DNA of 64,000 nucleotides. Source: an uncultured Tateyamaria sp. Its GTDB lineage: Bacteria; Pseudomonadota; Alphaproteobacteria; Rhodobacterales; Rhodobacteraceae. Location of the stretch: contig NZ_CANMEU010000002.1 of NCBI RefSeq assembly GCF_947497045.1, forward strand, positions 496,001-560,000, in the 5' to 3' direction. Made by a program: the position numbers and the translations under genes. This document shows, in pieces, positions 50,587 through 61,040 of the stretch; the first letter of the stretch is position 1; every line of letters begins with the position of its first letter. A model generated the notes under the pieces. It was given only the letters and a program-made list of their open reading frames with translations. It ran no database searches and was not told the DNA's origin.

Positions 50587-51930
50587 TCAGACAGAGGGGC
50601 CGATGCGCATCCGCGTCCCATCGGTAAAGCGGCTCAGACGGAACCGTGTCAGATCATGGCCCACCTCGCCCCCCGTGACCAGAGCGGCAAGCACCTTTCC
50701 CATGCCTGGGCCGATGCCAAAGCCGTGACCGCTCATGCCGGTGCCCACCGTCAGGCCAGGCAGGGCCACGACCCGGTCCACGACCGGAACGACATCGGGC
50801 ATGGTGTCGATCATGCCCGCCCACGCCGCCTTGATCCGCACACGGCCAAGGTCGGGGAACAGAGCCGCGAAATCACGCGTCAGGTCGGCGACCTTCCTCG
50901 CATTGGGCTGGGGGTCAAGGATGCGCATCCGCTCGAACGGGCTTTGCGCGTCTTCGGACCATGTGCGCGGGGTGCCCCAGGCATCCGGGAACCCGTTGGG
51001 TGCGCCGGGCAGAAACCGGGTGCCGAATGGGTCGGCGCGCAGTTGCGCAAGGAATTTTGGTAAGGATCGGAACGCATCGGGGCCTATGAACAGCTCGTGA
51101 AAGCCCCCCGCCGCCAGAGAATAGCCCCCATCCGCACGAGGTCGAAACGCGATACCCTCATCTGCCGCGCCACCAGGATAGACCATCGGCAAGGGCGCGG
51201 TCGCGGCCACGGTGGCACGCACGGACAGTTGCGGCAGGACAACCCCGTGACGGCGCAGGAACAGGGATGACCACGCGCCCCCCGCCAGCACAACCTCGGG
51301 TGCGGCGATCCGGCCCTGTTCGGTGATCACACCAGCCACTTTGCCGTCCGCCATATCCAGCGCACGCACCGCACAGCTTTCGACAATCCGCACGCCCGCG
51401 CGCACCGCAACACCGGCCAGCGCAGGCACCGCCACCCAAGGTTCGGCGCGCATGTCGGATGCGGTATAAAGCGCGCCCGCATAACGGCGCGACATGCCCG
51501 GGATCAGCTCCACCACCTCAGCCGCCGACAACACCCGGCTGTCCACACCATGCGCCTGCGCATGAGGCAACCACGCCTCATATTCCGCCATCTTTTTGGG
51601 GGTGCGCGCCAGATAGGTCACACCGCCGGTGTGCAGACCGATATCGACATTGGTTTCACCTGCCAGCTCGCGCCACAATGCGTTGGACTCGACCATAATG
51701 CCCAATTCGTCCGGGTCGCGGCCCTGCTGCCGAATCCATCCCCAGTTGCGCGAGGATTGCTCGCCCGCGATCCGCCCCTTTTCCAGCAAGACAACGCGCA
51801 GGCCATCACGGGCCAGGAACAAGGCCGTGCACACACCAATTACACCGCCGCCGATCACGATCACATCGGCCTCGACAGGCTGCGGGCCACCCCATGTCAC
51901 GGGGCTGTCACCATGGATTGCAAAGCGCAT
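50587..51930 (-). CDS. FAD-dependent amino-acid oxidoreductase (DadA/DAO-like)
   Basis: ADVIVIGGGVIGVCTALFLARDGLRVVLLEKG and C-terminal TVGTGMSGHGFGIGPGMGK. Confidence 0.88.
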   Translation of the reverse strand: MRFAIHGDSPVTWGGPQPVEADVIVIGGGVIGVCTALFLARDGLRVVLLEKGRIAGEQSSRNWGWIRQQGRDPDELGIMVESNALWRELAGETNVDIGLHTGGVTYLARTPKKMAEYEAWLPHAQAHGVDSRVLSAAEVVELIPGMSRRYAGALYTASDMRAEPWVAVPALAGVAVRAGVRIVESCAVRALDMADGKVAGVITEQGRIAAPEVVLAGGAWSSLFLRRHGVVLPQLSVRATVAATAPLPMVYPGGAADEGIAFRPRADGGYSLAAGGFHELFIGPDAFRSLPKFLAQLRADPFGTRFLPGAPNGFPDAWGTPRTWSEDAQSPFERMRILDPQPNARKVADLTRDFAALFPDLGRVRIKAAWAGMIDTMPDVVPVVDRVVALPGLTVGTGMSGHGFGIGPGMGKVLAALVTGGEVGHDLTRFRLSRFTDGTRMRIGPSV

Positions 51931-51944
51931 CAGCTAGCCCCATC

Positions 51945-52000
51945 AAGGGTCGGTGGGCGGGTGCCTTTTGGCCCCGGGCCAAAACAGACCGGTCCCGACC
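51945..52000 (-). other. Structured intergenic repeat element, copy A, adjacent to the argE-like stop
   Basis: AAGGGTCGGTGGGCGGGTGCCTTTTGGCCCCGGGCCAAAACAGACCGGTCCCGACC; inner stem TTTTGGCCC/GGGCCAAAA; homologous to copy B. Confidence 0.65.
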
Positions 52001-53161
52001 TCACGCCAGCCGCGCCACCAGATCGCGCATAAACGCGTGGCCCGCCTCGAACTGGGCCACGGTGATGAACTCATTGGGTTGATGGGCCTGCGCGATATCG
52101 CCGGGACCACAGACGACAGCGGAATAGCCTGCCGCCTGAAACTGCCCGGCTTCGGTGCCGTAGCTGACCACATGGCCCGCATTGTCACCCGTAATGGCGC
52201 GCACCAGACCTTCGGCCACGCCATCGGTCTCGGGCTGCAAGGGCGGCACATCAAAGCGGATATCGACCTCCACCCGCGTCTCGGGGCGGATCGCCTGCAT
52301 CCCACGCTCGATCTCTGCCACATGGGAAAGATATGCCTCTTTCAGGGCGGTGGTGTCATCCCCGGGCACCGCGCGGAAATCCATCGAGAACCGGCAAGAC
52401 TTGGCGGTGATATTATGGGCCGTACCGCCCTCGACCTGCCCCACATGCCACGTGGTACAGGGCGGGTCGAACATTGCCGCCAGCGGCGACGGGGTGGCGG
52501 CGAAATTCTCGGCATTGCGATGATTGGCAAAGTCGATGATCCTGGCCCCCTCAAGGATCGCGCTGACCCCGGTGTTCAGCAGCGAGGAATGGACCTCGAA
52601 GCCGATCACATGGGTGTCAAAGCCCTGCCCCCCCTTGTGGCCGGTGACCGCCTTCATCATCGACGGCTCGCCCACGATAACCGGGCCGCCCTTGGGCACA
52701 ACGCCCTGCATCGCCTCGATCATGGGTGGCGCACCAAGGCAGCCAATCTCTTCATCGAAACTCAGGGCAAGCTGCATCGGCGTGGTGACGCCCGCATGAT
52801 GCGCCTCGACCAGTGCCCAGATCGCAAGGGCGTCATAGCCTTTCATATCGCAGGTGCCGCGCCCGAAATACTTGCCATCGACTTGGGTCACGACAAAGGG
52901 GTCGGTGTCCCACGGCTGGCCATCCACAGGCACCACATCCGTGTGCCCCGACAGGACCACCGCGCCCTCGACCTCGGGGCCGACATGCGCAAACAGGGCC
53001 GCCTTGAGCTGATCGGGGTGGTAATATCTGTGGGCCGTGATCCCGTGATCACTCAGATAGCCCTCGACCCAGTCGACCAATGGCAGGTTCGTGTCGCGGC
53101 TGACGGTAGGAAAGCTGATCAGCTTGGTCATCAACTCCAGCGGGGTCAGTCGAGCACTCAT
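52001..53161 (-). CDS. argE: Acetylornithine deacetylase (M20) or related N-acyl amino acid deacylase
   Basis: VVLSGHTDVVPVDGQPWDTDPF, GRGTCDMKGYDALAIWALVEA, AGQFQAAGYSAVVCGPGDIAQAHQPNEF. Confidence 0.88.
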   Translation of the reverse strand: MSARLTPLELMTKLISFPTVSRDTNLPLVDWVEGYLSDHGITAHRYYHPDQLKAALFAHVGPEVEGAVVLSGHTDVVPVDGQPWDTDPFVVTQVDGKYFGRGTCDMKGYDALAIWALVEAHHAGVTTPMQLALSFDEEIGCLGAPPMIEAMQGVVPKGGPVIVGEPSMMKAVTGHKGGQGFDTHVIGFEVHSSLLNTGVSAILEGARIIDFANHRNAENFAATPSPLAAMFDPPCTTWHVGQVEGGTAHNITAKSCRFSMDFRAVPGDDTTALKEAYLSHVAEIERGMQAIRPETRVEVDIRFDVPPLQPETDGVAEGLVRAITGDNAGHVVSYGTEAGQFQAAGYSAVVCGPGDIAQAHQPNEFITVAQFEAGHAFMRDLVARLA

Positions 53162-59617: not shown

Positions 59618-59700
59618 GGCGCGGCACGCCTGCCCCTTCCTTTCGCCAAAAATACCTGAATCCACGGATGCCCCACACAGCACGATAGCGATAGGGTACG

Positions 59701-59755
59701 AAGGGTCGGCGGGTGGGTGCATTTCGGCAAAGCCGGAACAGACCAGCCCGCCGAC
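59701..59755 (-). other. Structured intergenic repeat element, copy B, adjacent to the DUF3422 gene stop
   Basis: AAGGGTCGGCGGGTGGGTGCATTTCGGCAAAGCCGGAACAGACCAGCCCGCCGAC; outer stem GTCGGCGGG/CCCGCCGAC, inner stem TTTCGGC/GCCGGAA. Confidence 0.65.
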
Positions 59756-59756
59756 G

Positions 59757-61040
59757 CTATTTCTCGACCGAGCGGCGCAATCGGCGCACCAGCCACCAGA
59801 CCCCCAGAACCACCGGCACGGTGACCAGCGCCGTCAGCAGGTTCTTGGACAGACCCGTCGGCCCCTCCAGCGGATATAACAGGTAACCCGCCAGCGAGAC
59901 CGCGTAATAGCTGATGGCCACAACAGACAGACCCTCAACCGTGCGCTGCAACCGCAGCTGCAAGTCCGACCGCTTGTCCATGCTCTCAAGCAAGGCCTGG
60001 TTCTGCGCCGAGCGTTCCACATCTACCCGCGTGCGCAACAGGTTGGCGGCGCGCACGCCGCGCGCACTCATGGCCTCCAACCGATCCTGCGCTGACCGGA
60101 CCGTGCGCATCGCGGGCTGATAACGGCGCACCATGAACTCCCGAAACGTCTGGCGACCCTCAAACCGGTCCTCGCGCAGGGCGGCAATCCGCTCGTTCAC
60201 AATCGCCTCATAGGCCCAAGTGGCCCCGAAGCGGAACGAGGATTGTGCGGACACCGTTTCCAACTCGGCCGAGATCGCAAGGAGTGCCTGCAAGGTTTCC
60301 TCGGCGCGTGATCCTTCGACCGACATGCTTTCCACCAACTCGGTCACGCGCGTATCCAGCGCGCCCAATTGCGCGCCCAGACTGCGCACACGGGCAAAGC
60401 CCAGCATCGACATGGATTTGTAGGTTTCGATCTCGCACAGGCGCTGCACGATGCGGCCCACACGGCGCTGACCTGTTCCTTCGGAGGTGAACACGGCAAA
60501 GCGCATATGCCCGTTCTGATCGATGCGGAAATCTCCTGCCATCACCGCCGCATCCTCGAGCACCGAACTTACCGCAAGGCTTTCGGGCACAAACCACTCG
60601 CGCAGGCGTGCGCGCATCGTTTCTGCCTCCATCCGGGGCTCCACCCGCACCAGAATCGAGGTCACGCGCTGACCCGGCGCGTCTACCAGCCAATCCTCGG
60701 GGAACGGATCAAAGGCGCGCGGATCAAAGGCGCGCTCCTCCACCCCATCGGAAAAGATGGTGTAGGTCACGAATTCAGTGTGCTGTTCCCATTTCAGCCA
60801 ATAGCGCCCGATCTGCCCGTAATAGTGGGTCGCACCGGGTTGGGGATGCGCAACACCGTGGCGATCCAGCAGCTTGTGGAGGTGATCCAGATCCGCAGCG
60901 CGATCCCGGCTGGCCGCCATCTCAGGCTGCTTGAAGGCCACATAGGCCGCCGCACATGGCGCATGCATCGACGGAAACGGGCGGGCATGCAGCTCGTTGG
61001 CCAATTGATAGCGCAAAGGGTGATCTTCGACGGGTGCCAT
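59757..61040 (-). CDS. DUF3422-family membrane-anchored protein
   Basis: MAPVEDHPLRYQLANELHARPFPSM start typical of DUF3422; C-terminal TM segments. Confidence 0.85.
   Translation of the reverse strand: MAPVEDHPLRYQLANELHARPFPSMHAPCAAAYVAFKQPEMAASRDRAADLDHLHKLLDRHGVAHPQPGATHYYGQIGRYWLKWEQHTEFVTYTIFSDGVEERAFDPRAFDPFPEDWLVDAPGQRVTSILVRVEPRMEAETMRARLREWFVPESLAVSSVLEDAAVMAGDFRIDQNGHMRFAVFTSEGTGQRRVGRIVQRLCEIETYKSMSMLGFARVRSLGAQLGALDTRVTELVESMSVEGSRAEETLQALLAISAELETVSAQSSFRFGATWAYEAIVNERIAALREDRFEGRQTFREFMVRRYQPAMRTVRSAQDRLEAMSARGVRAANLLRTRVDVERSAQNQALLESMDKRSDLQLRLQRTVEGLSVVAISYYAVSLAGYLLYPLEGPTGLSKNLLTALVTVPVVLGVWWLVRRLRRSVEK

Follow-up and report, generated by a model that had tools for sequence, protein, structure and literature searches.

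A family of short hairpin-forming repeats at gene ends of Tateyamaria and other Rhodobacteraceae is oriented with chromosome replication

We found that two similar segments in a 64,000-nt stretch of an uncultured Tateyamaria genome (the window: contig NZ_CANMEU010000002.1, positions 496,001 to 560,000) are members of a family of short DNA repeats that form hairpins and had not been described before. The repeats lie at the 3' ends of genes, and their sense strand is nearly always the leading strand of replication. This suggests a so far unrecognised signal used in chromosome replication or at transcript ends. The agreement between orientation and replication fork in a gene-end palindrome is not explained by transcription, gene strand or a known transposase.

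The initial annotation of the window had pointed out look-alike segments at 51945-52000 and 59701-59755, and both were confirmed in place, with covariance-model boundaries of 51947-52002 for copy A (E = 4.8e-8; G000:C2:547947-548002) and 59703-59756 for copy B (E = 2.2e-10), each on the minus strand, which is the sense strand used throughout. In copy A, the conserved 3' arm occupies 51947-51964 (sense GCACCCGCCCACCGACCC, plus strand GGGTCGGTGGGCGGGTGC), the inner covarying hairpin 51966-51984 (TTTTGGCC-CCG-GGCCAAAA) and the invariant CTGTT 51983-51987 (AACAG on the plus strand), all on the minus strand. The same parts of copy B, likewise on the minus strand, are found at 59703-59720, 59722-59738 (TTTCGGC-AAA-GCCGGAA, read on the plus strand) and 59737-59741 (AACAG on the plus strand), and the T-A to C-G compensatory change that had been reported between the two inner stems is real. 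Copy A is abutted, with a 2-nt overlap, by the TGA stop (52001-52003, minus strand; TCA on the plus strand) of an argE-like gene at 52001-53131, and a co-directional gene for a DadA-like FAD oxidoreductase (50587-51930, minus strand) starts 16 nt past the element. Directly abutting copy B is the TAG stop (59757-59759, minus strand; CTA on the plus strand) of the gene at 59757-61040, named here as DUF3422-like, which gave no match in an NCBIfam search. Copy B folded better than shuffled sequences (z = -5.5 and -3.6); the folding of copy A alone was no better than that of shuffles (z = -1.2 and -0.2).

The element is approximately 54 nt long and reads GG(Y)CGGYGGGYGGNW-CTGTTT-stem-loop-stem-AAAKGC-RCCCRCCCRCCGACCC in sense orientation, or GG..CTGTTT-hairpin-AAAKGC(R)CCCRCCCRCCGWCCC as a short consensus. 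An alignment of 101 sequences showed no variation in CTGTT, in AA or at most of the C positions in the 3' arm, and the inner stem was free in sequence with its pairing almost always kept. Inner-stem pairs 4 and 5 were Watson-Crick in all 107 non-redundant copies (shuffled means: 37 and 53) and no G-U pairs occurred in stem pairs 1-5, although it should be noted that this set was gathered by requiring 5 or more of 6 pairs and is therefore mildly biased. Pairs 4 and 5 were also Watson-Crick, again with no G-U, in all 18 of the copies that had been retrieved with only the other arm. Such a lack of G-U pairs is expected if the DNA, or both strands, must pair. The earlier claim of a conserved structured module is borne out by a covariation score of 0.213, against 0.062 in shuffled data (0 of 500 shuffles), in an alignment picked blind to the hairpin, and by the number of copies recovered with the covariance model.

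The 5' arm is looser and its complementarity to the 3' arm is partial (69% of cells). The outer stem takes in both ends of the element, of which the 5' end is variable and the 3' end reads CCGWCCC. No U-tract was present on either strand, as the hairpin is followed by CCGWCCC in sense and by the outer arm in antisense. The antisense strand gave the more stable DNA fold in 101 of the 107 copies. Wobble pairs were considered as a guide to the folding strand and set aside, with four C-A cells and zero G-T in pairs 1-5 being too few to decide. A sister type, GCTGTTT..AAAGGCGCCCCGCCCRCCGTCCC, was found in other Rhodobacteraceae; since either type can occupy one shared position at the DUF3422 locus across congeners, the two types are taken to be one family.

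The covariance model (R1) was built from 18 aligned good copies and used for scans of the window's own genome, the genus, the family and the class. At E < 2e-4 the Tateyamaria genome contains 21 copies. The further copies for which the initial annotation had proposed a search are present within this genome, in 19 of 20 congeners (5-32 copies each) and in 33 of the 249 family members sampled, with the named carrier records coming mostly from Tateyamaria and Mameliella and also from Tropicibacter, Roseobacter, Albimonas, Arenibacterium and others. Using the 5' pattern with ≤ 2 mismatches, 18 forward and 8 reverse matches were found genome-wide compared to 6 and 4 in a reversed control. Zero copies were found in congener G006. 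This genome is smaller (3.1 Mb), its sequence at the DUF3422 locus (L289) is AT-rich, and it may not be a close relative. Outside the family, none of 384 other genomes of the class gave a match in a low-sensitivity scan (14 candidates scored per genome; 14 of the 21 own copies recovered). A comparison with Rfam, also proposed earlier, gave no match on the element at gathering or E-value thresholds, and chance-level matches outside it only. Neither phage records nor 2.9 million viral contigs gave a match, plasmids gave one weak match, and the element is essentially chromosomal. Literature searches found no description of it.

We compared the orientation of the elements to the direction of replication. 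The sense strand was the leading strand (positive GC skew) in all 20 regions from the window's own genome, in 93 of 94 wider records (these include related species and one double count and are not independent) and in all 20 loci of other genera, 19 of which were of the sister type. Among the genus matches listed, 74 of 74 adjacent pairs on the same contig shared one orientation. The 15 copies on contigs carrying dnaA were all directed away from dnaA, each at a distance of at least 244 kb. One 3.86-Mb contig, from congener G002, represents nearly a whole chromosome, with the skew placing the origin at ~ 3.42 Mb and the terminus at ~ 1.45 Mb; plus-strand copies lay at 0.80-0.88 Mb, whereas those at 1.74-1.97 and 2.83 Mb were on the minus strand, so that the sign changes at the terminus. 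Nine of its ten copies were ≤ 0.67 Mb from the terminus, in the terminus-proximal third, and it should be noted that the terminus enrichment is drawn mainly from this one chromosome. Gene orientation is not the cause of the polarity, because genes in the own regions were balanced between the strands (194 leading, 191 lagging). A general bias of G-runs was also rejected as a cause: GGGNNGGNGGG occurred 18 times on the leading and 31 times on the lagging strand, a mild bias in the direction of the element with the own elements included, which cannot yield a near-complete polarity. Separately, G002:C1 0-0.26 Mb showed negative GC skew within a positive arm, possibly an inversion or misassembly, and held no copies among the element matches listed.

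Gene context was determined with genes called by a codon-usage script, which reproduced the genes of the window sensibly. Of the 94 element records, 56 had convergent neighbours, 19 were flanked by two co-directional sense genes, 14 by two antisense genes and none by divergent genes, whereas intergenic regions of ≥ 50 nt at the same loci comprised 99 convergent, 181 sense, 155 antisense and 136 divergent, so that divergent placement was seen in 0 of about 90 records compared to 136 of 571 in the baseline. In most records the start of the 5' arm and the stop of the sense gene were no more than 2 nt apart (-2 to +2 nt), in agreement with the fixed stop-codon position that had been claimed, and past the other end of the element the opposite gene had its stop at a distance of 0-16 nt. 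A co-directional gene end was the only one adjoined in 31 records and a head-on gene end in 15; some records lacking a nearby sense gene were gene-caller errors (e.g. L111, L184, L180), and about 10-12 of 94 remained after checking. The element also stands at the ends of opposite-strand genes and, as both kinds of site exist, no single RNA strand is made at all of them.

The initial annotation had likened the element to a fixed 3'-UTR module of the minus-strand gene (a terminator, stability element or binding site). Of this, the structure and the fixed position at a stop codon hold, but to call the element the 3' UTR of that gene is too simple, given the records with an antisense gene alone and the absence of a U-tract. 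Nor does a plain terminator or stability element account for it, because the orientation follows the replication fork, which neither explains. TAG stops were commoner beside elements (23 of 52) than elsewhere (188 of 992). No common function was found among neighbouring genes, which included groEL, coproporphyrinogen oxidase, DBI phosphoribosyltransferase, TetR, LysR, SDR, purL, kefC-like, serine deaminase and ClC channel genes.

Shared sites, compensatory stems and stops that are equal with and without the element indicate that in Tateyamaria the family is passed on mainly by descent and maintained by selection, while copies are slowly gained and lost. All 8 copies on the contig of the window (C2) were at matching sites in the sister species G011, and the divergence between the two was 0 of 40 positions in CTGTT, 8% in the 3' arm and 13% in the inner part and 5' arm. 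At the argE site the element is present in the window's genome (G000), G011, G014, G008 (where it is decaying), G009 and G010 and absent in about twelve congeners, and its stems vary by compensation (GGCC/GGCC vs GAGC/GCTC). Copy A is inside the argE-dadA-like gene pair, which two congeners run as an operon with a 9-nt junction. Some congeners bear ordinary terminator-like hairpins at the DUF3422 site instead of the element. The possibility that insertion of the element created the stop codon was ruled out at the two loci checked (argE and DUF3422), where the stop is identically placed in element-free congeners. A more recent expansion is seen in Mameliella, whose near-identical copies are followed by an ordinary terminator hairpin. 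These near-identical copies were seen at L137, L143, L154, L155, L163, L167, L172, L173, L180, L182, L186 and L209. Many are followed by AACAGGCTGCGCCTGTTTTT and TCACCAGGAAACAGGC, forming a larger repeat unit of ~ 120 bp, which suggests that it was amplified recently.

We also compared the element to known systems. REPs are short imperfect intergenic palindromes found between convergent or co-directional but not divergent genes and near stop codons (PMC3733652). Like the REP and BIME sequences of E. coli, Pseudomonas and alphaproteobacteria (GTAG and CGTC families), the element is intergenic, located at 3' ends and never divergent. However, it has no unpaired GTAG or CGTC tag, the Y1/RAYT transposase (PF01797) was absent from the genome of the window while control genomes gave matches, and paired copies in opposite orientation, which are frequent in REPs, were not seen in any of the 74 adjacent pairs. 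The ~ 54-nt length, conserved C-rich arm, near absence of G-T pairs and near-complete replication polarity also set it apart. It thus departs from REPs in three respects (tag, transposase in this genome and inverted pairs) and agrees with them in one (context). KOPS are polar octamers which orient FtsK. The wider class of AIMS, which includes them, has a replication strand bias and becomes commoner toward the terminus (PMC5993296). The element shares the bias between leading and lagging strands and may show part of the terminus gradient (9 of 10 near the terminus in one chromosome, and the dnaA-contig copies at least 244 kb from dnaA), but the octamers number in the hundreds to thousands compared to 21 copies here, and the element is a covarying hairpin confined to gene ends with a conserved G-rich run on the lagging strand. 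In arrangement it resembles the Tus-Ter and RTP barriers, with few oriented sites over the terminus half of the arms and a sign flip at the terminus; Ter is not known to require a hairpin. With intrinsic terminators it shares a gene-end hairpin, possible two-way use between convergent genes and same-site replacement by terminator-like hairpins, and it differs in lacking a U-tract, in its conserved arm and CTGTT and in its replication polarity. A CTG at the 5' base of a hairpin on the lagging-strand template is also a feature of the single-strand initiation hairpins of phage G4 type, which are read by DnaG primase, a likeness which may serve as a lead only. The most fitting description of the element is a palindromic family, as yet without a name, that is REP-like and replication-polarised.

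We tentatively favour the reading of the element as an extragenic palindrome of Rhodobacteraceae, REP-like and replication-polarised, which acts at the DNA level. The sense sequence, being the same as that of the nascent leading strand, would be exposed as a single strand on the lagging-strand template, where the hairpin together with the invariant CTGTT, AAAKGC and the C-rich arm could be read by a putative replication, repair or segregation factor. Its orientation would be selected much like that of KOPS, Ter and other polar chromosomal signals, and a 55-bp element may be least damaging at gene 3' ends. This is favoured because every site offers DNA, with the sense sequence on the exposed template, whereas a role played by a single transcript strand could not be filled at each of them and would not select an orientation related to the fork. 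The maintenance of copies at shared sites by descent and their essentially chromosomal occurrence also speak for it. Against it, the sense stop is placed to 1-2 nt and the other side is looser, which looks linked to RNA or translation; copies are far fewer than those of KOPS-type signals; and the lack of copies in G006 and the many element-free argE sites make single sites dispensable. A narrower form, which we consider rather unlikely, is a structured polar signal in the origin-distal Rhodobacteraceae chromosome, formed by a lagging-strand-template hairpin with CTG at its base and read one way by a putative replication, restart or segregation factor. If true, the defining feature of this replication-polar element would be its secondary structure, as opposed to a short word.

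It is possible, if doubtful, that the element instead works at RNA 3' ends, with a hairpin of the sense transcript just past the ribosome at the stop codon terminating transcription, either by means of a factor or without a U-tract, or protecting the mRNA end, and with convergent sites serving both strands. Such a role is argued for most strongly by the exact placement beside sense stops, and the avoidance of divergent sites with a majority of convergent ones, the terminator-like hairpins that replace the element at the DUF3422 site and the strict Watson-Crick pairing, which fits use of two strands, are consistent with it. The polarity would then be due either to selection or to the stronger hairpin being unstable on the lagging-strand template; as the antisense fold is usually the more stable, the tolerated orientation leaves the weaker hairpin on that template and an orientation filter via hairpin stability is possible. 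However, an RNA role does not predict near-complete replication polarity, and it sits poorly with the missing U-tract, with the records that have no sense gene, with the position of copy A between two genes that form an operon in two congeners and with copies that follow a separate intrinsic terminator (groEL locus L112, L151, L203) or, in Mameliella, precede one. We regard it as unlikely that the element is a REP-like non-autonomous mobile palindrome with no present host function, inserted into single-stranded lagging-strand template beside stops or terminators and leaving polarity as its footprint. The best arguments for such an insertion history are the TAG excess and the REP-like context, REPs being likewise found at 3' ends and often touching stop codons (PMC3733652); the near-identical Mameliella copies, as after a burst, and the range from 0 to 32 copies among genomes also fit. 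Insertion is opposed by the lack of a Y1 transposase in the own genome, of an unpaired tag and of inverted dimers, by stops which, at the two loci checked, are not made by the element, by sites common to G011 with stems changing by compensation in place and by the absence of the element from phages and near absence from plasmids. In marine Rhodobacteraceae, little is known about how replication ends and the chromosome is oriented. The family is either a new class of replication-polar signal in this major marine family or an unusually clean footprint of single-strand insertion.

Other features of the own 20-kb regions were also noted. Across L110-L129, hairpins with T-runs resembling intrinsic terminators were oriented against the fork in 9 cases and with it in 2, with genes balanced and numbers small. 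A second dispersed repeat, at 59633-59657 of the window and in own 20-kb regions, has the leading-strand sequence GGTATTTTTGG(T/C)(C/G)AAA.GAAG and often lies past a GC-rich hairpin. This repeat may be polar too, with 7 copies on the leading and 1 on the lagging strand in regions of clear skew.
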